A DNA stretch of 64,000 nucleotides from NCBI GenBank assembly GCA_016192135.1, contig JACPUR010000017.1, forward strand, positions 124,001-188,000. Reading direction: 5' to 3'. Under the pieces are notes generated by a model, which was not told the DNA's origin, did no database searches, and saw only the letters and a program-made list of their open reading frames with translations. The DNA comes from Candidatus Tectomicrobia bacterium. GTDB lineage: Bacteria; UBA8248. Shown piece after piece: positions 2,420 through 13,980 of the stretch. The position numbers and the translations under genes are program-made. The first letter of the stretch is position 1, and each line of letters starts with the position of its first letter.

Positions 2420-3001
2420 CTATTTCCATCCCTCGAAGGGTCCCGGGTCCTCGTCGAGCCCCAGGTGATAGGCGCGGATGCGGTTCCACAGCCGGAGCTT
2501 GGACCAGTCCGGCGAGCGCGCGGGGCGGAGGTCGTCCGTGAGGCAGGGGTTGGGGAGGAAGAAGGTGATCATCTGCTCGCCCCGGCCGTTCCAGAGGCCG
2601 AGGCTGTAGCTCAGCGGGGCGTGCCCGGCGATGGGCGGATCGGAGAACGTTCGGACGAGGGCCGCCCGCCCGCAGCGCCGCCACGCGGCAAGCCCCGGCG
2701 GGCAGGGGCGCCGCCCGTCCCCCTTGTGCTCCCCGATGCAGAGGTGCAGGTGCCAGTCGCCGAAATCCACGGTGAGGTAGCCGTCCAGGTAGCCGACGCG
2801 CCTGGGCGGGTGGCCGGTGCGGCACTCGAAGACGGCGCCCTGGATGCAGGGGCCGAACACGATGTCCCGGTAGTGGTTCTCGAAGAGGTCGCGCAGGAGC
2901 GCCTCGAGCGGCTCCCGCTCCGGGGTGAACTCCCACACCGCGGCCAGCCCGCCGTCGGGCTGCCGCTCCTCGCGCCGGGTGACTGCGGGCGGGGCGGGCA
3001 T
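2420..3001 (-). CDS. Conserved protein of unknown function (DUF7676-like)
   Basis: A 193-residue soluble protein without signal peptide or membrane segment. Its core motifs are IVFGPCIQGAVFECR, GYLDGYLTVDFGDWHLHLCIGEHKG and a closing aromatic-rich stretch. The His-x-His (HLHLC) and Glu-His pair look like possible ligands, and I recall this pattern in the DUF7676 family; no function is known to me. The start at 3001 (MPAPPAVT) is set by AAGGAG eight bases upstream. A palindromic dispersed repeat separates it from tonB, so it is probably not part of the cobalamin operon although it shares its strand. Confidence 0.75.
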   Translation of the reverse strand: MPAPPAVTRREERQPDGGLAAVWEFTPEREPLEALLRDLFENHYRDIVFGPCIQGAVFECRTGHPPRRVGYLDGYLTVDFGDWHLHLCIGEHKGDGRRPCPPGLAAWRRCGRAALVRTFSDPPIAGHAPLSYSLGLWNGRGEQMITFFLPNPCLTDDLRPARSPDWSKLRLWNRIRAYHLGLDEDPGPFEGWK

Positions 3002-3037
3002 CGGGGACTCCTTATGCGCGTTGCGGATGAGGGTTTC

Positions 3038-3110
3038 GTAGGGGCGAACCTTGTGTCCGCCCCATGTATCACCCGCGCGTAAGGGCGATGACAAGCATCG
3101 CCCTTACGGA
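3038..3110. repeat. Dispersed palindromic repeat, family A (GTAGGGGCGA type)
   Basis: Starts GTAGGGGCGAACCTTGTGTC and includes GGGCGATGACAAGCATCGCCC, a near-perfect inverted repeat. Related copies recur in at least nine other intergenic gaps of this window. Confidence 0.75.
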
Positions 3111-3150: not shown

Positions 3151-4032
3151 CTACCGCTCGGCTTCCCGGAGAGTATACCGGACGGGGAGCACCAGCGCAT
3201 GGCGGACGTGGGGGAGGGGCTGCGCCCGCCGGACGGCCTCGAGCGTCGCCTCGTCCAGCGCGGGGTGCCCCGAGGTCTCGCGGATGGCGAGGCCCTCCAC
3301 CCGGCCGTCGGGCCGGATGCGGAAGGCCACGACCGCCGTGCCCTCGACCCCCATGAGCCGGGCGGCCTCGGGATAGCGCTTGGCCCTCTCGATGCGCGCC
3401 ACGATCTGGGCGAGGCGCTCCCGCAGGAGCCGGGGCGAGAGCGTTTCCTCCCCGGGGAGGGGAGGAAGCGACGCCGTCCGGGAGCCTTCCGCCCGGGGCG
3501 CGGGGGCCGGGGATGCGGGCTTCGTTGCGGCCGGTGGGGGAGGGGATTCTTCTTTCGGTGGAGAGGTGGGCGCTTGGCCCGGACGGGCGAAGGGCTTCGC
3601 CTCCTGGGAAGGCGCCGGGGGGACTTGGCGCGGCGCGCGCCCGGCGGACGCGGCCTCGCGCGGCGGGATGACCTTCTTTTTCTCCGCTCGTGCACCCGGC
3701 GGCGGGACCGCGCGCTCCGGTGCCCGGGGTGCGGCGGTCCCCTGGGGCGCGGCCTGCCCGGGCGAAGAAGTTTGCCCGGGCGGTGGGAGAGGGGAGGGAG
3801 GCGTGCGGGGCTTGGGTTCGCGGATGGGCGCCGCCTCGGGGGCGGGCGCCTTCTCCTCCGGCGCGAGGCGCACCAGCCGGACGGGGTAGCCCGGCTCAGG
3901 CGCGCCCCCGGGGGGGAGGAGGGCCAGGCCCCCCAGCAGGCCCGCATGGACGGCGGCCGAGAGGAGCCAGTGGAGCTTCAGCCCCCCGCCCTTTCCCGCC
4001 GTCCGGTAGATGGTCCGCACCGTCTTGATCAT
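3151..4032 (-). CDS. tonB: TonB energy-transducing protein
   Basis: A 293-residue protein with TonB architecture: one N-terminal membrane anchor (about residues 20-40, LLSAAVHAGLLGGLALL), a long Pro/Lys/Ala-rich periplasmic linker (about 45-200) and a C-terminal TonB domain (about 205-290) with the typical YPEAARLMGVEGTAVVAFRI and a closing LPVRYTL strand. It would couple the ExbB/ExbD proton motor, not encoded here, to TonB-dependent receptors. It starts one base after the stop of the beta-propeller lipoprotein gene, so it is probably the last gene of the cobalamin operon. This suggests a TonB dedicated to the B12 receptor encoded upstream. Confidence 0.88.
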   Translation of the reverse strand: MIKTVRTIYRTAGKGGGLKLHWLLSAAVHAGLLGGLALLPPGGAPEPGYPVRLVRLAPEEKAPAPEAAPIREPKPRTPPSPLPPPGQTSSPGQAAPQGTAAPRAPERAVPPPGARAEKKKVIPPREAASAGRAPRQVPPAPSQEAKPFARPGQAPTSPPKEESPPPPAATKPASPAPAPRAEGSRTASLPPLPGEETLSPRLLRERLAQIVARIERAKRYPEAARLMGVEGTAVVAFRIRPDGRVEGLAIRETSGHPALDEATLEAVRRAQPLPHVRHALVLPVRYTLREAER

Positions 4033-4033
4033 G

Positions 4034-5671
4034 TCAGTAGAGGATGTGCAGGCGGCTCTTGCCCCGGGGAGGCCGCCCGTCCGGGATGGCCGCGGGGGAC
4101 TCCACCACGGCGATGAGGGAGCCGTCCGGGCTGATCGCCGCCTGATCGTAGGGGATGGGGCCCTCGGTGTGGTATTCGCCCGCGTAGGGGTTCCCCTCCC
4201 GCCTCGTGTCGAAGAGGACGAGGGCGTTCACATCCTCGCGGCGGAAGGCCCGGCTCTGGCTCAAGGGTACCGCGAGCCAGCGGCCGTCCGCCGAGAGGGC
4301 GAGGCCGTTCGGGCGGTTGGGGGCGGCCCAGCGGTGGCGCAGCCGCCCGTCCCAGCCGAAGAAGAGGAGCGTGTTGCTGTTCGGGTGAGGCTGATTCGTC
4401 GAGGCCCCCGCCGGCGCGGCCTGGAGGGGGACATATCCCCCGCCCAGGGAGAAGATGGCCAGCTCCCGCGTGGCCCCCAGCAATCCCGTCTCGGCCACCA
4501 CCGGGAAGCCCCCCGTCTGGACGGGCCCGCCCCGCGCCTCGGTCCAGCGCGCGCGGCCCCGCTCGATGATGTAGAGCCGGCCGTCCCCCGTCGAGGCGTT
4601 GACGGCGCCCCCGTCCGGGCGCACGGCCACGCTCCTCCAGGTGGTGACGCTCTTGAAGGGGGGGAGGGGCTCGAAGGGATGGCGCCAGCGCTCCTCCCCC
4701 GTCCCGAGGTCCACCGCGTAGAGCCCCGGCGGCATCGGGAGCCCCGGCTCCCAGTTCCGCGCCATGCCGAGCACGCCGACGGCCACGCGCGCCTTCTCAT
4801 CGTGGCTGAACCACGTCAGCGAGAGGGGCGCGGGCTTCTCGCGCGGCCATTTCCAGCGCAGGGCGCCCGTCCTCCCGTCGAAGCGGTAGAGGTGGGAGAG
4901 CTGGCGGACGGGCGATCCGGGGTCGGGATACCAGTTGTGGAGACCCCCCACGAGGAGATCGCCCTCCGGCGTCACGGCCATCCGGTAGGGGCCGGGGAAC
5001 TCCACCCAGGCGAGCTCGTTGCCCGGATCGCGGGGGCCGCCGCTCCCCAGGTCCTTCGAGAGGTCGTAGCGCCAGGCCTCCCGCCCGCCCGGAAGCTCCA
5101 CCGCCCGGATGCTCCCCTCCCGCGTCTGCTCTCCGATGAAGAGAACGCGCTCGTCCGGGGAGAAGGCGGCCGCCTTCGCCAAGCCCTCGGCCACGCGGCG
5201 CTCGAAGACCGTCTTCCCGGTCTCCACTTCCATCACCCGCACCTGTCCCCGCTGGTTCCCCAGGGCGAGGAGCCTCCCCGAGGGGCTGAAGAGGACGAAG
5301 GTGGACTCGCCGCTTCCCGCGTGGCCCGGGCCCGCGAGCATGCCCTCCAGCTCCACGACCCGCACCGGGACGGGGTCGGCCAGGGCGGGCGCGACGGCCT
5401 CCATCCGCTGCTTCCCATTCTCACCCCAGCGGAGGGTGCACGCTTCGCGCGGCTCCCAGCGGAAGGCGAGGAGGAGCTTTTCGCCCATGACGCGCGGGGC
5501 CGCGGCCTGAGCGGCCCTGCCGCCGCAGGAGACGGCTACCTGCTTCGCCTCGCCCGGGGGCACCCCCTCGATCACCCCGCCCAGGCGGGCGAAGGTGAAG
5601 CGGGGCGCCGCGGGCTCCGCGCCGCAGCCCGGGAGCAGGAGCGCGAGGGCGAGGGCGAGCCGGGCGGTCAT
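4034..5671 (-). CDS. PQQ/WD40-like beta-propeller lipoprotein
   Basis: A 545-residue protein with a lipoprotein signal (MTARLALALALLLPGCGAE, lipobox LPGC). The mature part contains repeated blades of the pattern h-h-x-P-D-G-x-x-h-h (FSPSGRLLALG, FSPDERVLFIG, LSADGRWLAVP, ISPDGSLIAVV) and PQQ-like phrases such as YAVDLGTGEERW, consistent with a seven- or eight-bladed propeller facing the periplasm. Function is unknown; propellers of this kind often mediate protein contacts. It overlaps the EcfT stop codon by one base and ends one base before tonB, so it sits firmly inside the cobalamin-uptake operon. That position suggests a scaffold between receptor, binding protein and ECF transporter, which is inference. 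Confidence 0.75.
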   Translation of the reverse strand: MTARLALALALLLPGCGAEPAAPRFTFARLGGVIEGVPPGEAKQVAVSCGGRAAQAAAPRVMGEKLLLAFRWEPREACTLRWGENGKQRMEAVAPALADPVPVRVVELEGMLAGPGHAGSGESTFVLFSPSGRLLALGNQRGQVRVMEVETGKTVFERRVAEGLAKAAAFSPDERVLFIGEQTREGSIRAVELPGGREAWRYDLSKDLGSGGPRDPGNELAWVEFPGPYRMAVTPEGDLLVGGLHNWYPDPGSPVRQLSHLYRFDGRTGALRWKWPREKPAPLSLTWFSHDEKARVAVGVLGMARNWEPGLPMPPGLYAVDLGTGEERWRHPFEPLPPFKSVTTWRSVAVRPDGGAVNASTGDGRLYIIERGRARWTEARGGPVQTGGFPVVAETGLLGATRELAIFSLGGGYVPLQAAPAGASTNQPHPNSNTLLFFGWDGRLRHRWAAPNRPNGLALSADGRWLAVPLSQSRAFRREDVNALVLFDTRREGNPYAGEYHTEGPIPYDQAAISPDGSLIAVVESPAAIPDGRPPRGKSRLHILY

Positions 5672-6534
5672 CAGATGGCCTCCCGCGTGAAGGTGTAAAG
5701 CGGCGCGAGGGCCGGGTGGTAGTAGAGGCCCGAGGCGTAGAGGAGGTAGAGCGCCTTGGCCGCCGCCACGGCGGCCGCTCCCAGCAGCGCCGCCGAGAGG
5801 ATGGCCCGCTCCCAGGCCTTCATGCGGAGGGGATGGAGGCTCGTGCGCCGCCGGGAGGGGTCGTAGCCCCGGCTGGCGGCCGCGAGGGCGGCGGTCTCGG
5901 CCCGCCGGATGGAGGCCGCCAGCACGGGCCGGGCGATGGAGAGCAGCGCCCGGAAGGCGTTCGCGCCGAGGCCGCCCCCGAGCCTCAGGCCGCGCATCCG
6001 CTGGGCGCGCAGGGCGATCCGGGCCTCCTCCGCCGTCACGGGCAGGAAGCGGATGGCCGCCGTCGCGCAGAAGGCCAGGGCGTGGGGCAGGCGCAGCGAG
6101 GAGAAGCCGGCGAGGAGGCCGCTCGGCTCCATCGTCCAGGCCGCCGCCAGCCCCGCGCTCAGGGTGGCCGCCAGGCGCAGGGACTGGACCGCGCCGTGGA
6201 CGATCCCTTCCCGGTAGATCGCGAGGCCGCCCGTGAGCGTCCCGATGAGGGGCGTATCGGGCGGCGCGAGGACGAAGAGGGCCGTGCGCGGGAGGTGGTT
6301 GTAGAAGATGGCCTGGGAGGCCATCAGGCTCCAGGCGGAGAGCCCCAGCGCGGCGGCCAGGAGGATGAGGGCCCGGAGGCCCGGGCAGGCGGCAAGGGCC
6401 CAGCCGAGACCGAGGGCGGCCAGCAGGGCGAGCGACGCGGCGTTGTCCAGCGCCACGGCCATTGTCCCGATGGCGAGGAGGCAGCCGGCCAGGAAGCGCG
6501 GGTCGCGGCCCGCGGCGCGCGCGGGGGAGATCAT
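5671..6534 (-). CDS. ecfT: ECF transporter T component (CbiQ/EcfT family permease)
   Basis: A 287-residue membrane protein with about six hydrophobic segments and a central cytosolic helical part. It carries two Ala-Arg-Gly type signatures, AQRMRG (about residue 180) and AAASRGYDP (about residue 220), the diagnostic EcfT coupling helices that contact the ATPases. T components link the S component to the ATPase pair in energy-coupling-factor importers. The start Met at 6534 overlaps the end of the ATPase gene by four bases (ATGA), showing translational coupling. The neighbours make cobalamin the likely substrate of the whole complex; CbiQ homologues also serve cobalt, so the family alone does not decide. 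Confidence 0.85.
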   Translation of the reverse strand: MISPARAAGRDPRFLAGCLLAIGTMAVALDNAASLALLAALGLGWALAACPGLRALILLAAALGLSAWSLMASQAIFYNHLPRTALFVLAPPDTPLIGTLTGGLAIYREGIVHGAVQSLRLAATLSAGLAAAWTMEPSGLLAGFSSLRLPHALAFCATAAIRFLPVTAEEARIALRAQRMRGLRLGGGLGANAFRALLSIARPVLAASIRRAETAALAAASRGYDPSRRRTSLHPLRMKAWERAILSAALLGAAAVAAAKALYLLYASGLYYHPALAPLYTFTREAI

Positions 6535-8075
6535 GGCGCCATCCTCGCGGGGGCGGGCTCGAGATCCTCGAGCGCGCCCTGCCCCGCCCCGGCCAGCACC
6601 CCGGCCGCCGGCCCCAGGGCGGCGGTCCTTCCCTCGCGCAGGACGAGCGCCCGGTCCGCGCACTGGAGGGCGGACCCGGTGTCGTGGGTGCAGAGGACGA
6701 TCCCGCGCTCCTCCGGCGCCTCGTCCACCCATCGGCGGAGGTCCGCGAGCAGGCGCTGGCGGAGGCCCCGGTCCAGGCCCGCCGTGGGCTCGTCCAGCAG
6801 AAGGACCCGGGGGGCGCAGGCCAGCAGCGCCGCGAGCGCCACCCTAAGCCTCTCCCCCCGGCTCACCGAAAAGGGGTTGCGGCCCGCCAGCGGGGCGAGC
6901 CCCACCCCCTCCAGGGCGCGCGCCACGGCCTCCCGGGCCTCGGCGGGGGGACGGCGGAGGAGCCTGGGCCCGAGCGCGACTTCGTCCCGGATGGTGCCCG
7001 CGCTGAGCATGAGGTCCGGGTTCTGGAAGAGGAAGCCCACTTTTCCGGTGAGGGAGGAGAGGGAGAGCCGGGGGCGGACTTGGCCGAACCACTCGATTTG
7101 GCCTTCCTGGGGGCGCAGGAGGCCCGCGAGGAGCCCGAGGAGGGTGCTCTTGCCGGCGCCGTTGGGGCCCATCAGGGCGAGGATCTCCCCGGCCCGCAGT
7201 TCGGCGGTGACATCATCGAGGGCCGGGGGACTCTCTTTCGCGTAGCGGTGGCACAGGCCCCGGAAGCGGACGAGGGCGGGCTTCTCCGCGCGGATGGAGA
7301 TAGGCGCCGCGTGAGGGGCGGGGAACTCGTCCCCCGGTGCCTCGAGGCCCAGCTCGCGGAGGAGGGGCATCGCCTCGCCGAAGCGCCCGCGCGGGAAGAC
7401 GCCCCGGATGGTTCCTTCCTCCAGGACGACCAGCCGGTCCGCGAGCGGGAGAACGCGCCCGACGCGGTGCTCCGCGATGAGGAGGGTGAGGCCCTGTTCC
7501 CCGCGCATGGCGGCGAGGGCGCGGAGGATTTCCCGGCTCGCGCGCCCGTCGAGCTGGCTCGTGGGCTCGTCCAGGGCGAGGACGCGGGGGTGAAGGGCGA
7601 GGGCGCTGGCGAGAGCCACTCGCTGTTTCTCCCCGCCCGAAAGCTCGGCGCACGGCGAGTGGCGCTTTGCGGAGGCCGAAGCGCGCGCGAGCGCCTCCTC
7701 CACGCGCTGCGCGATCACCCCGGGCGGCTCGGCCAGGTTCTCGGGGCCGAAGGCCACCTCGTCCTCCACCCGGCCGCAGAGGAGCTGGTCCTCGGGGTTC
7801 TGGAAGAGGAAGCCCACCGCCGAGCGCAGGGCGGGGGAGGGGATCGAGGCGGCGTCCCGCCCGCCGATTTCGATTCGGCCCTCGAGGCGGCCCGCGCTCT
7901 CGCGGGGAATGAGGCCGTTCGCCGTCTTGAGCAGGGTGCTCTTCCCGCAGCCGGTGGGACCGGTCAGGAGGACGCACTCCCCCTCGCGCGCCGCGAGGTC
8001 GATCCCCCGCAGGGCCTCCCGGGCCGCCCCGGCGTAGCGGAAGCGCACGCCGCTCCAGGAGATGGCGGGGGTCAT
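6531..8075 (-). CDS. ecfA: ECF transporter double ATPase (EcfA and EcfA' in one chain)
   Basis: This 514-residue protein contains two complete ABC ATPase domains. Domain 1 (about 3-240) has Walker A GPTGCGKST (39-47), signature LSGGEKQ and Walker B RVLALDEPTS. Domain 2 (about 265-495) has Walker A GPNGAGKST, a degenerate signature VSRGERLR and Walker B RVLLLDEPTAG. ECF transporters normally use two separate ATPases; here both are joined, as in YkoD-like proteins. The degenerate second signature implies one weaker ATP site, common in asymmetric ABC pairs. The start at 8075 overlaps the S-component gene by four bases. It powers uptake through EcfT and the S component. Confidence 0.9.
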   Translation of the reverse strand: MTPAISWSGVRFRYAGAAREALRGIDLAAREGECVLLTGPTGCGKSTLLKTANGLIPRESAGRLEGRIEIGGRDAASIPSPALRSAVGFLFQNPEDQLLCGRVEDEVAFGPENLAEPPGVIAQRVEEALARASASAKRHSPCAELSGGEKQRVALASALALHPRVLALDEPTSQLDGRASREILRALAAMRGEQGLTLLIAEHRVGRVLPLADRLVVLEEGTIRGVFPRGRFGEAMPLLRELGLEAPGDEFPAPHAAPISIRAEKPALVRFRGLCHRYAKESPPALDDVTAELRAGEILALMGPNGAGKSTLLGLLAGLLRPQEGQIEWFGQVRPRLSLSSLTGKVGFLFQNPDLMLSAGTIRDEVALGPRLLRRPPAEAREAVARALEGVGLAPLAGRNPFSVSRGERLRVALAALLACAPRVLLLDEPTAGLDRGLRQRLLADLRRWVDEAPEERGIVLCTHDTGSALQCADRALVLREGRTAALGPAAGVLAGAGQGALEDLEPAPARMAP

Positions 8076-10012
8076 CCGGCCACCTCCCTGAGGGGCGCGC
8101 CCAGCCGCAGGCCCAGCGCGAAGCCGATGAGGGTGTAGAGCACGCTCCCGACCGCCAGGTAGAGCAGGATGTACCAGTCCGCCAGGATGAGCCGGTAGAA
8201 GAAGATGTGCAGGTGCATGCTCGCGCCCGCCAGCAGGAGGTCCGCCCCCACGAAGGCCAGCCCCGCGGCCAAGGCGGGGCGCCAGCGCTCCTGGGGCCAG
8301 CGGTCGAGGAGCCTCCGGCCGGGGGCCCCGCGCGTGATGCCCGCCAGCCAGGCGGCCCCCTCCAGGAAGACGATCTCGGCCGCGAGGAGGAGGACCGGGA
8401 TGATCTGGAAGGACTCCAGGGTGAGGGCCAGGATGAGTCTCCGGATGGCGGCGAAGAGGGCGAGCGCGCCGGGCACGGGGTAGCGCATCAGGAAGGCCGC
8501 CGCGAGGGCGTAGAGCGGCACGTGGCTGAAGAGGCCCGTCACCAGGAAGGAGAAGGGACCGAGGAATAGCCGGGTGGTGCTCCCGACCAGGAACTCCGGC
8601 AGGCTCGCCAGGACGAAGGCCGCCGCCGCGAACATGGCCGCCCCGGTCATCACCCGCAGGGGCATGGCCCGCAGCACGCGCCCCCCGCGCCAGGCGAGGA
8701 GGGCGCTCCCTGCGATGGCGACGGCCAGGGTGGCCGCCGTCACGAGGAAAGCCCTGAGGCTCGGGCGCCTCAGTTCGAGCGGGAGATCGAGCGCGAGGAG
8801 ATCCGTCTCGGTGCCCAGCAGGCGCACCTGGACCCGGCGCACGTAATGTCCCGGCGCCGCCTCGCGCGGGTCGAGGAAGATGGGAAGGACGACGGGCGCC
8901 GTCCCCCCCGCCGGCAGCGCCGCGAAGGCGATGCTCCGGCCCGAGCCCCCGCTGATGAGATCGGGCGCCCGGAAGAAGGCGGCCTCCCGATCCGTCCCCG
9001 CGACGAGGATGCGCGAGGCGACGGTCAGGGCCAGCGCGCCCTCCGAGGCGTTGCGCAGCCACAGCGTCTGGTGGCGGTAGGGGAAGAAGGGATTGACCGG
9101 GGGGCCGCCGCGCCCGGTCAGGGTCAAGAGGAAGTGCCCCGGCCCGCCCGGCAGCAGCATGGTGTCCGGGAGCTGGAAGGGGTCGGCGTTCCCCTCCTCG
9201 TCCGTGGGGAGGGCGGCCCGCTCCAGCCGCACCGCGCGCGCCAGCTCCCCGGCGGGCCGCAGGAGGACCTCGGTCCGCACCTGGAGCGGAGGGTGGCCGC
9301 CCCCGGGGCGAAGCGCCGCCTCGAAGGCGAGGGAGCCGGACGCGCGCTCCGGGAGGCGGAGCTTCACCTGGCGGAACCAGATGTCCCCCGCCGCGCCGAG
9401 GCTTCCAGAGGCGGAGAGGGCGAAGCCCCCGCCGCCGGTGGAATGGAGGAGCTCCCAGCCTTCCGGCAGCGATTCCACCTCGACGCCCGGCGGGAGCCGC
9501 AGGAGGGCCTCGAAGCCGCCCGCGCCCCCGTTCGGGGTGGCCTCCCCAAGGGAGGCCACCTTAAGCGTCGCGTGGAGAGCGGCCCCGGCGGGCAGGAAGG
9601 CGCGCGGGGAGGCGAGGCCGTGGGGGATTTCGAGGGTGAGGGCGAATGGCGCCGGGCGCGCGGCGGGGGCCGGCGCGGACGCCTCGATCCAGGCGCCTCC
9701 TCCGTCTCCCCCGGCGCCCTCCCGCATGCGGAGCCGCACGCGGTAGGTTTCCCCCGGCCGCCAGGGGAACTCGACCCGGAATTCGCGGCCGGACCGGCCC
9801 GCCAGCTCGCGGCGGAGGAGTACCCGCCCCTCCCCGGAGAGGACCTGGACCTCCTCGGCCGGAGCGGCGCGGGAGAGGTGCAGATGGATGCGATCCGGGC
9901 CGAAGGCGAAGCGGGAGAGCCGCACGGGCTCCCCGCCGCCCCCGCACCCCCCGAAGGCGAGGGGCGCGAGGAGCAGCAGGAGCCAGAGAAGCCGGCTCAG
10001 AAAGGCTCCCAT
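8072..10012 (-). CDS. Lipoprotein fused to ECF S-component-like membrane domain (probable cobalamin-specific subunit)
   Basis: A 646-residue protein with an unusual layout. It begins with a lipoprotein signal (lipobox FGGC at about 20-23), followed by roughly 390 residues of beta-rich extracytoplasmic sequence. A first membrane helix lies near residue 430, and five or six more run to the C terminus, including the stretch around SFLVTGLFSHVPLYALAAAF and the final VLYTLIGFALGLRLGAPL. The last 190 residues have the size and helix spacing of ECF S components such as YkoE or CbrT. It lies between btuF and the ECF ATPase and overlaps both genes (by 16 and 4 bases), so it should be the substrate-binding S subunit. 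The extracytoplasmic part may dock the binding protein or receptor. The S-component identity is inferred from position and topology. Confidence 0.65.
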   Translation of the reverse strand: MGAFLSRLLWLLLLLAPLAFGGCGGGGEPVRLSRFAFGPDRIHLHLSRAAPAEEVQVLSGEGRVLLRRELAGRSGREFRVEFPWRPGETYRVRLRMREGAGGDGGGAWIEASAPAPAARPAPFALTLEIPHGLASPRAFLPAGAALHATLKVASLGEATPNGGAGGFEALLRLPPGVEVESLPEGWELLHSTGGGGFALSASGSLGAAGDIWFRQVKLRLPERASGSLAFEAALRPGGGHPPLQVRTEVLLRPAGELARAVRLERAALPTDEEGNADPFQLPDTMLLPGGPGHFLLTLTGRGGPPVNPFFPYRHQTLWLRNASEGALALTVASRILVAGTDREAAFFRAPDLISGGSGRSIAFAALPAGGTAPVVLPIFLDPREAAPGHYVRRVQVRLLGTETDLLALDLPLELRRPSLRAFLVTAATLAVAIAGSALLAWRGGRVLRAMPLRVMTGAAMFAAAAFVLASLPEFLVGSTTRLFLGPFSFLVTGLFSHVPLYALAAAFLMRYPVPGALALFAAIRRLILALTLESFQIIPVLLLAAEIVFLEGAAWLAGITRGAPGRRLLDRWPQERWRPALAAGLAFVGADLLLAGASMHLHIFFYRLILADWYILLYLAVGSVLYTLIGFALGLRLGAPLREVAG

Positions 10013-10917
10013 CCCACGCCCCTGTGGCCGAAGTCGAAGCGGTGCGGGTGGAGGATCTCGGCCAGGATCTCCAGCGACTCGGCCACCCGCGGCCCCGGCC
10101 GGTTGAAGAACTGGTTCCCGTCCGTCAGGGCCACCCGGCCCTCGCGCACCGCCCGCAGGCGCGGCCAGCCGGGCCGGGCGGCGAGGGCGCGCATCTCCTT
10201 CCGTGTCTTATGGAGGCCATAACCGCACGGGAGGACCACGATGACCTCGGGGTCCCGCGCGGCGAGGTCGTCCCATTCCATCCAGGGAGAGTGGGCGCCG
10301 GCTTTTCCAAAGAGGTTCTCGCCGCCCGCCATCTCCACCAGCTCCGGCACCCAGTTCCCCCCCGCCATGAGCGGGTCGATCCATTCGATGCAGGCGACGG
10401 AGGGGCGGCGCAGGCCGCCCGCCTCCCGCGCCACGGCCGCCATCCGGCTCTTCATTTGAGCAATGAGGCTTTCCCCCCGCTCCGGCACCCCCAGGGCCTC
10501 CGCCACCTTGGCGATGTCCCGCCAGATGTCGGCGAGGGCGTTCGGCTCCAGGGAGACGATGCGCGTTTCGGCGCCCGCCCACTGGCTCACCGCGCGCTCC
10601 ACGTCCTTGAGGCTCACCGCGCACACCTCGCACTGGGACTGGGTGACGATGACGTCCGGCGCGAGGGCGCGGAGCCTCGCCTCGTCCACCCGATAGACCG
10701 AGAGGGCGTCCCGCAGCGCCGCCTTCACCCGGGCGTCCACCTCGGCGCTCGTGCCGCGCGGGTCGAAGCGGGGCTCCGTGCAGACGGGGAGGTCCTCGAC
10801 CCGGGGAGGGTAATCGCACTCGTGCGAGCGGCCCACGAGGCGGCCGCCGAAGCCCAGCGCGCAGACGATCTCGGTCGCGCTGGCGATGAGGGAGACGACG
10901 CGGAGCTCCTCTGGCAT
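9997..10917 (-). CDS. btuF: BtuF-like cobalamin-binding protein without signal peptide
   Basis: A 306-residue protein of the BtuF/FecB-type binding-protein fold. It begins almost at once with VVSLIASATEIVCALG and GRLVGRSHECDYP, the hallmark of cobalamin-binding BtuF homologues, and has a long backbone helix in the middle and a closing domain with FFNRPGPRVAES. No signal peptide or lipobox precedes the fold at the start at 10917, and none is seen in frame just upstream, so export is not explained; many BtuF-like proteins of this subfamily also lack one. Downstream of the BtuB-like receptor and overlapping the S-component gene by 16 bases, it should hand B12 to the ECF transporter. Confidence 0.85.
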   Translation of the reverse strand: MPEELRVVSLIASATEIVCALGFGGRLVGRSHECDYPPRVEDLPVCTEPRFDPRGTSAEVDARVKAALRDALSVYRVDEARLRALAPDVIVTQSQCEVCAVSLKDVERAVSQWAGAETRIVSLEPNALADIWRDIAKVAEALGVPERGESLIAQMKSRMAAVAREAGGLRRPSVACIEWIDPLMAGGNWVPELVEMAGGENLFGKAGAHSPWMEWDDLAARDPEVIVVLPCGYGLHKTRKEMRALAARPGWPRLRAVREGRVALTDGNQFFNRPGPRVAESLEILAEILHPHRFDFGHRGVGWEPF

Positions 10918-10931
10918 GGATTCTCCTTCGC

Positions 10932-13025
10932 TCAGAAGTGGAAGCGGATGCCCGCCAGCCAGTTGATGCCCGGCGCGTTGAAGCCGAACACGTCGTCGTA
11001 GTCCTCGTCGAGGAGATTGTTCACCTTGAGCTCCACCGTCAGGCGCCTCACCCCGGGCAGGGAGACGCCGCCGGGGACGGGCTTGCCGTCCCGGATGAGG
11101 TCGTAGGCCAGGGCCAGGTCGGTGCGGGCGTAGCCCGCGTTGTGGACCCTGGGGAAGGTGAAGCTCCCCTCGATCAGGGGCGTGAAGTCGCGGTCGGGCC
11201 GCTGGCCCACCTGCTGCAGGATCAAAGTGCCGCGGAAGCGCCCCGGGTGGTAGCTCACCGAGCCGGTCCACCACCAGTGCGGGCGGCGCAGCAGGCCCTG
11301 CCCCGCCATGAAGTCCTGGCCGCCCCGGCCCCCCCGGTCGTCCGCGACGACGGTGTCGAGGTAGTTCCAGTTCGCGCGCACGGTGAAGTCGCGGTAGTCC
11401 ACGAGGGCGGCGGAGAGCTCCACCCCCTTGGTCTCCACCTTGGAGATGTTCTCGAAGTTGGTGCCGTTCGGGAAGCCGGCGAAGCTGAAGGAGATGAGGT
11501 CCTTGAGGGTGTTCTCGAAGTAGGTGGCGCTCAGGACGATCTGGCGGCCGAGGAGATACTGGTCCACCCCCGCCTCCCAGCTCTCCTGGCGCTCGCTCTT
11601 GAGGTTGGGGTTGCCGCGCAGGACGAGGAAGCCCTGGTCCGAGAAGAAGAAGAGATCGTTGAAGGAGGGCCGCTTGGCGCCGTTCCCCGCCGCCCCGCGG
11701 ACGCGGGTGCCCGTCCGCTCGAAGAGGTAGGAGGCGGAGAGCTTGCCGGTCACGTCGTCCGCCCCCTTGTCGTAGTCGTCCACCCGGGCGCCGCCCGTCA
11801 GGGTGAGGCGGTCCCAGAAAGTGAGCTGTTCCTGGAAGTAGAGGGAGCGCGCCAGGCGCGTGTGGTTCTGGGTGGTGCTCTGCGTGCCGCGCACGGTCTG
11901 GAAGAAGCGCTCCTCCTCCCACTGGAATCCCAATGTCGTGACGGAGGAAGTGAGGGCGTCCCAGCGGAGGTCCTGCCCCGTGAAGCGCAGGTTCACCGGG
12001 TGATCCGTCAGGTAGCGGGTCTGGGTATTGTCGCTCTTGAATTCGGAGAAGAAGGGCCGGGTGACATCCAGGGCGTCGGCCGGGTCGTGGAAGGTGAAGT
12101 CGCGCTGGTAGAAGGAGGCGCGGGGGACGTACTCGAGCCACCGCGTGGGGCGCAGCTCGAGGCTCGCTCCCGCCATCTGATCCGCCGCGTCCTGGTAGGC
12201 GTTCAGCTCGCGGTCGGTGAGCCCCGCCGGGAGGCGGAACTCCGTGTTGGTCGCGCCGGCGTCCGAGGTCTGGTCGCGGCGGTTGCGGTTTCCCATGACG
12301 AGCAGGCGGAGCTTCGCGGCGGGGGAGGGGAAGTAGTCGAGTGCGCCCAGGGCGGCGGTGCGGTAGTAGCCGTCGTTCGTGTAGCGGCCCTCGCTGTCCA
12401 CACGGCTGAGGGTGGCGAGGTAGCCCCCCTTCTCCCAGCCCCCCTTCGCCTTGAGCACTTCCTCGAAGGTGGAGTCGGAGCCGAAGCGGAAGGCGGTCTC
12501 GAGGGAGGGCCGCTCGCCCGGCCGGCCCAGGTCGAGCAGGAGGTTGATCACGCCCGCGGCGGCGTCCGAGCCGTAGAGGGAACTCTGGGGCCCGCGCAGC
12601 ACCTCGGCCCCCCGGAGCCACTCGGCCGGGATGTGGGCGTAGTCGAAGACGTCGCCGTCGGGGGGGGTGAGCTTGAAGCCGTCGAGCAGCACGCTCGTGA
12701 AGTTGTTCTCGCTCCCCCGGATGCGGATGCTGGCGGTGGCCCCCCGGGCGCCGGTCTGGTCCATGTTGAGGCCGATGCCCTGGCGGAGGAGGTCGCCGAA
12801 GTCGGTGGGCAGAGTCAGTTCGATCCGGTCCTGGGCGAAGACCTCGACGGAGTCCCCCACGGTGCTGACGGGCCGGGGGGTGCGGGTGGCGGTGACGGTC
12901 AGGGGATCCAGCAGGAGCTCCCGCCCCTGCGGTGCCTGGGCGAGGGAGTCGCCGGCGGCGGCGAGCAGGAGCGCCAAGGCGGCGAAGAGCGGAATCGGGG
13001 ATAGGAGAGATCGGCGGCGGGCCAT
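10932..13025 (-). CDS. btuB: TonB-dependent outer-membrane receptor, BtuB-like
   Basis: A 697-residue protein with a signal peptide (MARRRSLL to about SLAQA), then a TonB-box-like segment (DPLTVTATRT), a plug domain (about 45-160, with RIRGSENNFTSVLLDGFKL and RGPQSSLYGSDAAAGVINL) and a 22-strand barrel. It ends in the aromatic outer-membrane signal GIRFHF. Two cobalamin riboswitches directly upstream identify the ligand as B12 or a related corrinoid. I chose the Met at 13025 because it starts the signal peptide behind GGAGAA; the frame is open for 46 more codons, but that part overlaps the riboswitch. It is the first gene of the uptake operon. Confidence 0.92.
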   Translation of the reverse strand: MARRRSLLSPIPLFAALALLLAAAGDSLAQAPQGRELLLDPLTVTATRTPRPVSTVGDSVEVFAQDRIELTLPTDFGDLLRQGIGLNMDQTGARGATASIRIRGSENNFTSVLLDGFKLTPPDGDVFDYAHIPAEWLRGAEVLRGPQSSLYGSDAAAGVINLLLDLGRPGERPSLETAFRFGSDSTFEEVLKAKGGWEKGGYLATLSRVDSEGRYTNDGYYRTAALGALDYFPSPAAKLRLLVMGNRNRRDQTSDAGATNTEFRLPAGLTDRELNAYQDAADQMAGASLELRPTRWLEYVPRASFYQRDFTFHDPADALDVTRPFFSEFKSDNTQTRYLTDHPVNLRFTGQDLRWDALTSSVTTLGFQWEEERFFQTVRGTQSTTQNHTRLARSLYFQEQLTFWDRLTLTGGARVDDYDKGADDVTGKLSASYLFERTGTRVRGAAGNGAKRPSFNDLFFFSDQGFLVLRGNPNLKSERQESWEAGVDQYLLGRQIVLSATYFENTLKDLISFSFAGFPNGTNFENISKVETKGVELSAALVDYRDFTVRANWNYLDTVVADDRGGRGGQDFMAGQGLLRRPHWWWTGSVSYHPGRFRGTLILQQVGQRPDRDFTPLIEGSFTFPRVHNAGYARTDLALAYDLIRDGKPVPGGVSLPGVRRLTVELKVNNLLDEDYDDVFGFNAPGINWLAGIRFHF

Positions 13026-13094
13026 GCGGTTCTCCTCGGCGTCCCAAGACGCCACAGGGGCCCCGGCGGGAGCGATCCCGCGCGGGGCGCGTGG

Positions 13095-13250
13095 AGAATC
13101 CGGCAGGCCGGTCTTCTGGCTCGCGCCGATGGCCGGCTCCCGCCCCTTCCCGGATGCGCGCATCCAGTGGGACTTGCGGGAGCCGCGTCGCTCACAGCTG
13201 CTGGGCAGCCCCGGTTTCGCACCGGGTTCCCGGGCACCTGCCGGATCGGC
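13095..13250 (-). promoter_or_regulatory. Cobalamin riboswitch, proximal copy
   Basis: On the minus strand the aptamer core GGGAACCCGGTGCGAAACCG (complement of 13212-13231) is followed by CAGCTGTGAG and then the B12 box AGCCAGAAGACCGGCCTGCC (13102-13121). The closing stem is visible: CCGGCAGG at 13237-13244 pairs with CCTGCCGG at 13100-13107. Between it and the btuB start, a GC hairpin (13060-13088, stem GCGGGA/TCCCGC with GCGA loop, extended by GCCCC/GGGGC) without a U tract could be the expression platform, acting on the ribosome-binding site GGAGAA just downstream. Confidence 0.9.
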
Positions 13251-13428
13251 TCGGAGGCGGCGCGTCCGCCTCCGCTTAGAATGCTTCGGTACAGCGTCTG
13301 GGGGTGAGGAGGCTGCGAGGCCGGAGGGTTCCCGCCGGGAGGCCTTGAATGGCCATCCCCGCAGAAATGATGAATCCCTTTGGCTGAAGCCGCACTTCCC
13401 GATCCCCGAGGAGGCGACGTGGATGCAG

Positions 13429-13600
13429 CGGGCGAAACCGGTCTCCTGGCTCCCGGATCGTCCTACTCGCGGCGGCCTTCCCGGCGGCTGGGCGCCCGTG
13501 GCCTCTTGGACCGCTTTCGTCTCCGGTTACAGTGGCGGGTCCGCGCCGGATTCTCACCGGCTTCCCTGTCCTCCCCGCGGGAGGACGCCTCACCCGATGG
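13429..13600 (-). promoter_or_regulatory. Cobalamin riboswitch, distal copy (tandem with the proximal one)
   Basis: The minus strand reads GGGAAGCCGGTGAGAATCCG, then CCGCCACTGTAACCGG and the B12 box GAGCCAGGAGACCGGTTTC, an excellent match to the cobalamin aptamer consensus. A P1 stem can be drawn between 13587-13596 and 13429-13438. It lies about 180 bases before the proximal copy in the same orientation, so a single leader would contain two B12 sensors in series. Confidence 0.92.
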
Positions 13601-13638
13601 GCGCAACCTACTCTTTTCCCGAGGGGCTTTCAAGCGGC

Positions 13639-13980
13639 TCAGCCGCCCGGGCCTCCGATCTCCTGATCCAGGAGCATCTGCGACTCGGCCATCTCGTGGA
13701 TCATCTGGCAGGTGGAGCGGAAGTCCCTCTCCAGGCCGGCGAAAAGCTGCTGGATCTGCAAGGGGGTGAGGATCTGCGAGAGCTCCGAGAACACCACTTC
13801 CCAACTGTCCCGCTGCCGCTTGCCCCGCTCCAGGACCTTCCGCTCCTTCGTCATTTCGTCGTAGATCTCGTGCTCATGATCCAGAAGATCGCGGAGCACG
13901 GGCTCGTAGTTCGGATCGTGGGAGTGGATGTAGCGCATGAGATATGGCTTGAAGTTTCGTACTTTTTGGAGCCTTTCCAT
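13639..13980 (-). CDS. Small helical soluble protein of unknown function
   Basis: A 113-residue charged protein rich in Glu, Arg and Leu and predicted almost wholly helical (e.g. HEHEIYDEMTKERKVLERGKRQ). No signal peptide, membrane segment or motif I recognise. ATG at 13980 is preceded by GGAGG. It ends about 40 bases before the riboswitch leader on the same strand, so the B12 operon promoter must lie within or after this gene, or the gene is cotranscribed upstream of the leader. Amino-acid composition supports real coding. Confidence 0.65.
   Translation of the reverse strand: MERLQKVRNFKPYLMRYIHSHDPNYEPVLRDLLDHEHEIYDEMTKERKVLERGKRQRDSWEVVFSELSQILTPLQIQQLFAGLERDFRSTCQMIHEMAESQMLLDQEIGGPGG

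Follow-up and report, generated by a model that had tools for sequence, protein, structure and literature searches.

The question raised by this locus is whether, in uncultured diderm bacteria of a little-known group, an ECF transporter can take the place of BtuCD in carrying B12 across the inner membrane. The first-pass annotation of the window (the whole stretch of 64,000 nucleotides that was analysed) had described a complete cobalamin route from the outer membrane to the cytoplasm, encoded by one riboswitch-led operon comprising receptor, binding protein, S-like subunit, fused ATPases, T component, propeller lipoprotein and TonB. In fact, all these genes were found in a single operon, at the place proposed and on the minus strand, and a cobalamin riboswitch does lie ahead of btuB, although as two tandem full-length RF00174 aptamers rather than one. 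In the following, genera of the phylum are designated g1 to g6, g2 being the sister genus. The parts of the locus are:

13419..13607, minus strand: first cobalamin riboswitch aptamer, full length (RF00174, 90 bits; gathering score 31.5)
13089..13256, minus strand: second, tandem cobalamin riboswitch aptamer, full length (RF00174, 87.5 bits), 64 nt ahead of the btuB start codon
10932..13025, minus strand: btuB, TonB-dependent outer-membrane corrinoid receptor, 697 aa (PF00593 and PF07715; best NCBIfam family TIGR01779)
9997..10917, minus strand: signal-less PF01497 "cobalamin-binding protein", probably an accessory, 306 aa (PF01497, 7.8e-19)
8072..10012, minus strand: S protein, 646 aa, a predicted lipoprotein with a beta-domain in the periplasm (~30-415), followed by an anchor helix and an S-like domain of six helices (~450-646)
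6531..8075, minus strand: fused EcfA-EcfA' ATPases, 514 aa (TIGR04520, TIGR04521; Walker and signature motifs)
5671..6534, minus strand: EcfT of the CbiQ family, 287 aa (PF02361, 3.2e-21)
4034..5671, minus strand: beta-propeller lipoprotein, 545 aa (PF13360 PQQ_2, 3e-10; lipobox LLPGC)
3151..4032, minus strand: TonB, 293 aa (PF03544, 5e-17; TIGR01352)
2420..3094, minus strand: DUF7676 gene after the operon (PF24724, 8e-55), a conserved end marker that is also present at the BtuCD locus in g2

The operon spans 13607-3151 with all its parts collinear, and the gaps between consecutive genes from btuB to tonB (+14, -16, -4, -4, -1 and +1 nt) are so small that a single transcription unit is very likely. 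Moreover, the gene set is no chance arrangement, since independently assembled genomes from three further genera contain its core. A 113-aa gene (window 13639-13980) lies directly upstream of the first riboswitch, and occupies the same place in g1 and g3 with 68-79% identity.

The reading that we hold to be most probable is that of a B12-regulated corrinoid uptake operon in which a dedicated ECF transporter, composed of an S component, EcfAA' and a CbiQ-like T component, replaces BtuCD at the inner membrane. Regulation is indicated by the aptamers, which were the only cobalamin riboswitches retrieved from the whole genome in the RF00174 search. The best curated family of the receptor is the vitamin B12 receptor family TIGR01779, with an E value of 1e-47, although the match stays below the curated cut-off. 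The fused ATPases score 331.3 bits with TIGR04520 (cut-off 315) and 330.3 bits with TIGR04521 (cut-off 330), keeping Walker A, signature and Walker B motifs in both halves, while EcfT carries the RAQRMRG and AASRG motifs, of the Ala-Arg-Gly type. The genome holds one CbiQ-family T component, and therefore the ECF module looks dedicated, that is, of the group I type. A search of a plasmid collection for relatives of the T component and the S protein gave no credible match.

The rest of the genome was then considered, since a functional BtuCD encoded elsewhere under a riboswitch of its own had been named as contrary evidence. The assembly is 96.8% complete and, like all the genomes compared, a draft; absences are therefore strong, though short of absolute. 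No BtuC was detectable, the FecCD profile giving one sub-threshold match only; this protein was rejected as BtuC, being ZnuB (PF00950, E 7e-74) with ZnuA close by. Neither a btuC nor a second cobalamin riboswitch locus was thus found. Those FecCD matches that were examined in the g1, g4 and g5 genomes, in g4 and g5 the best of the weak ones, were also rejected, as they proved to be ABC-3 metal permeases. SbmA/BacA, another known B12 importer, was not found in the genome either. Regarding synthesis, CbiC is needed in both routes to the corrin ring, and its absence from the genome means that the organism should depend on B12 uptake; nine matches to the B12-binding-domain family describe a B12 user without synthesis of its own.

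The strongest evidence for the role of the ECF set was obtained from gene order in related genomes. The search covered 18 genomes of the phylum, all belonging to one family. Three relatives are known by name, as Candidatus Tectomicrobia bacterium RIFCSPLOWO2_12_FULL_69_37, the uncultured Nitrospinae bacterium FO_M_Nitrospinota_01 and Nitrospinaceae bacterium UBA3496. Three mutually exclusive strategies were observed: the ECF set with the S-like protein, in genera g1, g3, g4 and g5 (five genomes); BtuC with BtuD and a signal-bearing BtuF, in six of the seven g2 genomes; and B12 synthesis, CbiC and a cobalamin synthesis operon being the mark of g6. The two remaining genomes gave no riboswitch match either, and their completeness is low, at 67% for G002 and 79% for G009. 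In g2 the locus reads riboswitch, riboswitch, btuB, btuF, btuC, btuD, tonB and DUF7676, whereas in the window it reads riboswitch, riboswitch, btuB, PF01497 protein, S, ATPases, T, propeller, tonB and DUF7676. The ends of both versions are homologous (btuB with 47% identity, DUF7676 with 63-66%), and it is the inner-membrane transporter in the middle that has been exchanged. Because the exchange takes place at the same position between homologous ends, the ECF set is taken to do the work of BtuCD, and the earlier proposal that an ECF importer stands where BtuCD would be is borne out by the relatives. This looks like an in-place gene displacement. The tandem riboswitch pair ahead of btuB is also found in g1, g2, g3 and g4 relatives, whichever transporter comes next, and the riboswitch is single in g5 and g6. 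The g5 operon is the most compact, with riboswitch, btuB, S, ATPases, T and tonB, and without the propeller and PF01497 genes. The DUF7676 gene (window 2420-3094; L062, L063, L064), found after tonB whether the locus contains the ECF set or BtuCD, may possibly be tied to B12.

The subunit which would bind the substrate of this transporter, the 646-aa protein, gave no match in Pfam, NCBIfam or PDB-chain sequence searches, solved structures included, and its S domain had no Pfam match even at E 10; single homologues gave scattered, chance-level matches in the Pfam, NCBIfam and PDB profile searches. Homologues are present in g1, g3, g4 and g5, and in all four genera the gene sits between btuB and the ATPase gene. 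In a pattern-based scan of contigs, which can miss distant relatives, the S domain turned up in no more than three genomes, all of them drafts from this group. Genome G001 has another, slightly deviating fragment of the S gene, interrupted by a stretch of N, on a different contig (L061 8474-9058; L060 9176-11095), probably as a result of strain mixture or an assembly break.

The window protein is apparently a lipoprotein, judging from a lipobox that is imperfect in this sequence (GGC after AF) and clear in its relatives (LAGC). Its periplasmic beta-structure extends over ~400 residues, with a pLDDT of roughly 65-85 over most of residues 31-255, and matches generic Ig/FN3-like beta-sandwich structures only. 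This domain is present in three genera, the g5 protein consisting of the anchor helix and the membrane domain only (225 aa). The membrane domain shows six helices after the anchor helix, in an S-domain model of low confidence (pLDDT 45) that gave no Foldseek match; in general, the AlphaFold models (pLDDT 55 for the full protein and 45 for the S domain alone) are too poor to judge the S-component fold. The domain follows a strong positive-inside pattern, with K+R ratios of 13:2 to 11:1, the segments having been set with the helices in view. An AxxxA motif in the first helix is invariant among the five homologues, and is kept even in the AT-rich g5 protein with its 5% alanine. AxxxA is the motif by which S components dock on EcfT, and is missing in S-like folds without an ECF partner (PMC11109136). 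Furthermore, identity among the S components known so far is as low as about 15% (PMC11109136), with which the failure of profile libraries to detect the domain is in keeping. The most conserved stretch, FFYRLxxAxWY, lies in the last predicted periplasmic loop, which would be the kind of place where S components bind their substrate; no cysteine of the domain is conserved among the five homologues. It is likely, but not proven, that the 646-aa protein is the S component of an ECF transporter, and it appears from its sequence to represent a previously undescribed substrate-binding subunit, whose family escapes the profile libraries now in use.

The binding-fold protein is a different matter. 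The first-pass annotation had listed it as part of the route, and as a periplasmic step of that route it is not supported. The 306-aa PF01497 protein has a weak similarity to solved BtuF chains; nevertheless, as a BtuF stand-in it was rejected, since neither it nor its orthologues carry a signal peptide or hydrophobic N-terminus (N-termini read by eye), and since its family coexists with a true BtuF in g2. There, the BtuF encoded beside BtuCD carries a signal peptide, and four genomes possess, besides BtuF and elsewhere than in the btu operon, a full-length orthologue of the signal-less protein with 60-63% identity. Moreover, no gene for it was found in the ECF operon of g5. ECF transporters need no separate binding protein. 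The signal-less protein is therefore probably an intracellular accessory. Members of the family (window 9997-10917; L112-L115) also stand alone in other bacteria, where "cobalamin-binding protein" is one of the annotations given to them, and in G014 one copy follows a btuB end (L109).

Periplasmic capture, if there is any, is more likely to be carried out by the N-terminal domain of the S protein or by the propeller lipoprotein. The latter has a lipobox in its relatives too (FSAGC and ITGC), and a phmmer search of the PDB matched it with WD40-type proteins only, no BtuG structure being among the matches. Whether the S protein and the propeller lipoprotein have N-terminal domains of common descent was considered, and no such relationship is claimed, the hhalign probability being 14-44%. 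The g5 operon (L070) is without all three of the S periplasmic domain, the propeller lipoprotein and the signal-less PF01497 protein, as if these formed one accessory module.

The part of the earlier proposal concerning the inner membrane stands, with the ECF set in place of BtuCD, and the following route can be suggested. When cobalamin is scarce, the riboswitches would, judging from their family, allow expression of the operon. BtuB, energised by the co-encoded TonB, would bring the corrinoid into the periplasm, where it may be captured or handed over with the help of the S protein's N-terminal domain and of the propeller lipoprotein. The S component, for which the C-terminal domain of the 646-aa protein is the candidate, would then take the corrinoid and topple on docking to EcfT, and the fused EcfAA' ATPases would power transfer across the inner membrane, as family membership and genomic context suggest for both steps. 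The substrate of the ECF transporter would be cobalamin or cobinamide. A bolder version, which we put forward only tentatively and think rather doubtful, is that the S protein represents a new architecture with a lipid-anchored corrinoid-capture domain built in, a single polypeptide of an ECF transporter thereby combining the roles of BtuF and BtuC, and fed by the propeller lipoprotein with corrinoid received from BtuB.

Other explanations of the same genes have to be weighed. The ECF set could import a B12 building block, such as alpha-ribazole or dimethylbenzimidazole, or another riboswitch-regulated compound, with the corrinoid itself crossing the inner membrane through an unrecognised transporter. 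Some ECF S components (CblT) do serve lower-ligand salvage, the S domain matches no characterised family and the ECF substrate is deduced from context, all of which would fit; nevertheless, the operon includes btuB and tonB, the ECF set lies precisely where BtuFCD would be and no other known importer was found, FecCD and SbmA/BacA being absent, so that we consider this explanation unlikely. An importer of cobalt or thiamine/HMP that just happens to sit in a B12 operon is scarcely credible, despite the T component being of the CbiQ family and a fused double ATPase being also found in the HMP importer subunit YkoD. Cobalt and thiamine were the substrates that the first-pass annotation had named as refuting its proposal, and the genomes point away from both: CbiM is absent in 18 of 18 genomes, the lack of CbiC means that there is no corrin ring synthesis in need of cobalt, and ThiC is present in the genome, so thiamine/HMP uptake is not needed. 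In addition, the S domain lacks a Pfam match, as stated, and btuB and tonB belong to the operon.

The 646-aa protein could also be an accessory membrane protein, the ATPases and the T component working with an S component encoded elsewhere. The poor model and the fact that sequence searches linked the protein to no S-component family or structure are what this explanation has in its favour; however, the low identity among known S components (PMC11109136) deprives the latter of much weight, the gene is placed between btuB and the ATPases in four genera, and it is the only other membrane gene in the minimal g5 operon. Together with the six-helix topology, the positive-inside pattern and the invariant AxxxA, these points make an accessory role highly improbable. 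The reading as a corrinoid importer with its own S component is consequently retained. At the level of the phylum, the locus would represent a case in which a complete ECF module has replaced BtuFCD in the same position, and if this is true it adds an S-component family that is invisible to present profile libraries, and perhaps a new domain architecture. The compact g5 version (225-aa S protein, EcfAA' and EcfT) is suited to direct testing.

Comparison with known systems delimits what this locus adds. The BtuB-BtuF-BtuCD system of E. coli and g2 has riboswitch, receptor and TonB as here, and in g2 the genomic place is shared as well; BtuCD, however, is a type II ABC importer with periplasmic BtuF, whereas here an unrelated ECF importer is found and no BtuC. 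YkoEDC and CbiMNQO are dedicated ECF modules, YkoD being a fused double ATPase and CbiQ giving its name to the T family, but the present system differs in having no CbiM, an S domain without Pfam match, and a B12 context rather than one of HMP or cobalt. The propeller lipoprotein, with its putative corrinoid role, brings to mind BtuG, which is also a beta-propeller, although its phmmer matches in the PDB were WD40-type proteins. BtuG and BtuH of Bacteroides are lipoproteins encoded with btuB under cobalamin riboswitches (PMC12751083).

Closest in function are two systems based on S-component proteins. ECF-CbrT of Lactobacillus delbrueckii is an ATP-driven ECF importer for cobalamin and cobinamide where BtuCDF is absent (PMC5997447). 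Its host is Gram-positive, without an outer membrane, whereas here a diderm operon provides btuB, tonB and its own module with fused ATPases; the S family is also different as seen by profile and PDB sequence searches, and in three genera it includes a periplasmic domain. BtuM of Thiobacillus denitrificans is an S-component-like B12 importer of Gram-negatives lacking BtuCDF, and btuM co-localises with btuB; it is solitary, with no ECF module, and its cobalt ligand is an invariant cysteine (PMC6072759). Here, a full ECF module is encoded in the same operon and the S domain conserves no cysteine. In many B12 auxotrophs that possess BtuB, BtuCDF cannot be recognised, and the passage of B12 across their inner membrane is largely open (PMC6072759). 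It is thus already known that S-component proteins can carry B12 (CbrT, PMC5997447; BtuM, PMC6072759) and that BtuM stands in for BtuCDF in Gram-negatives. What is new here, with no priority claimed for the general arrangement, is a complete dedicated ECF module in a btuB-tonB operon, exchanged in position with BtuFCD, together with an S family that goes undetected by profile libraries, and the periplasmic domain of that family.
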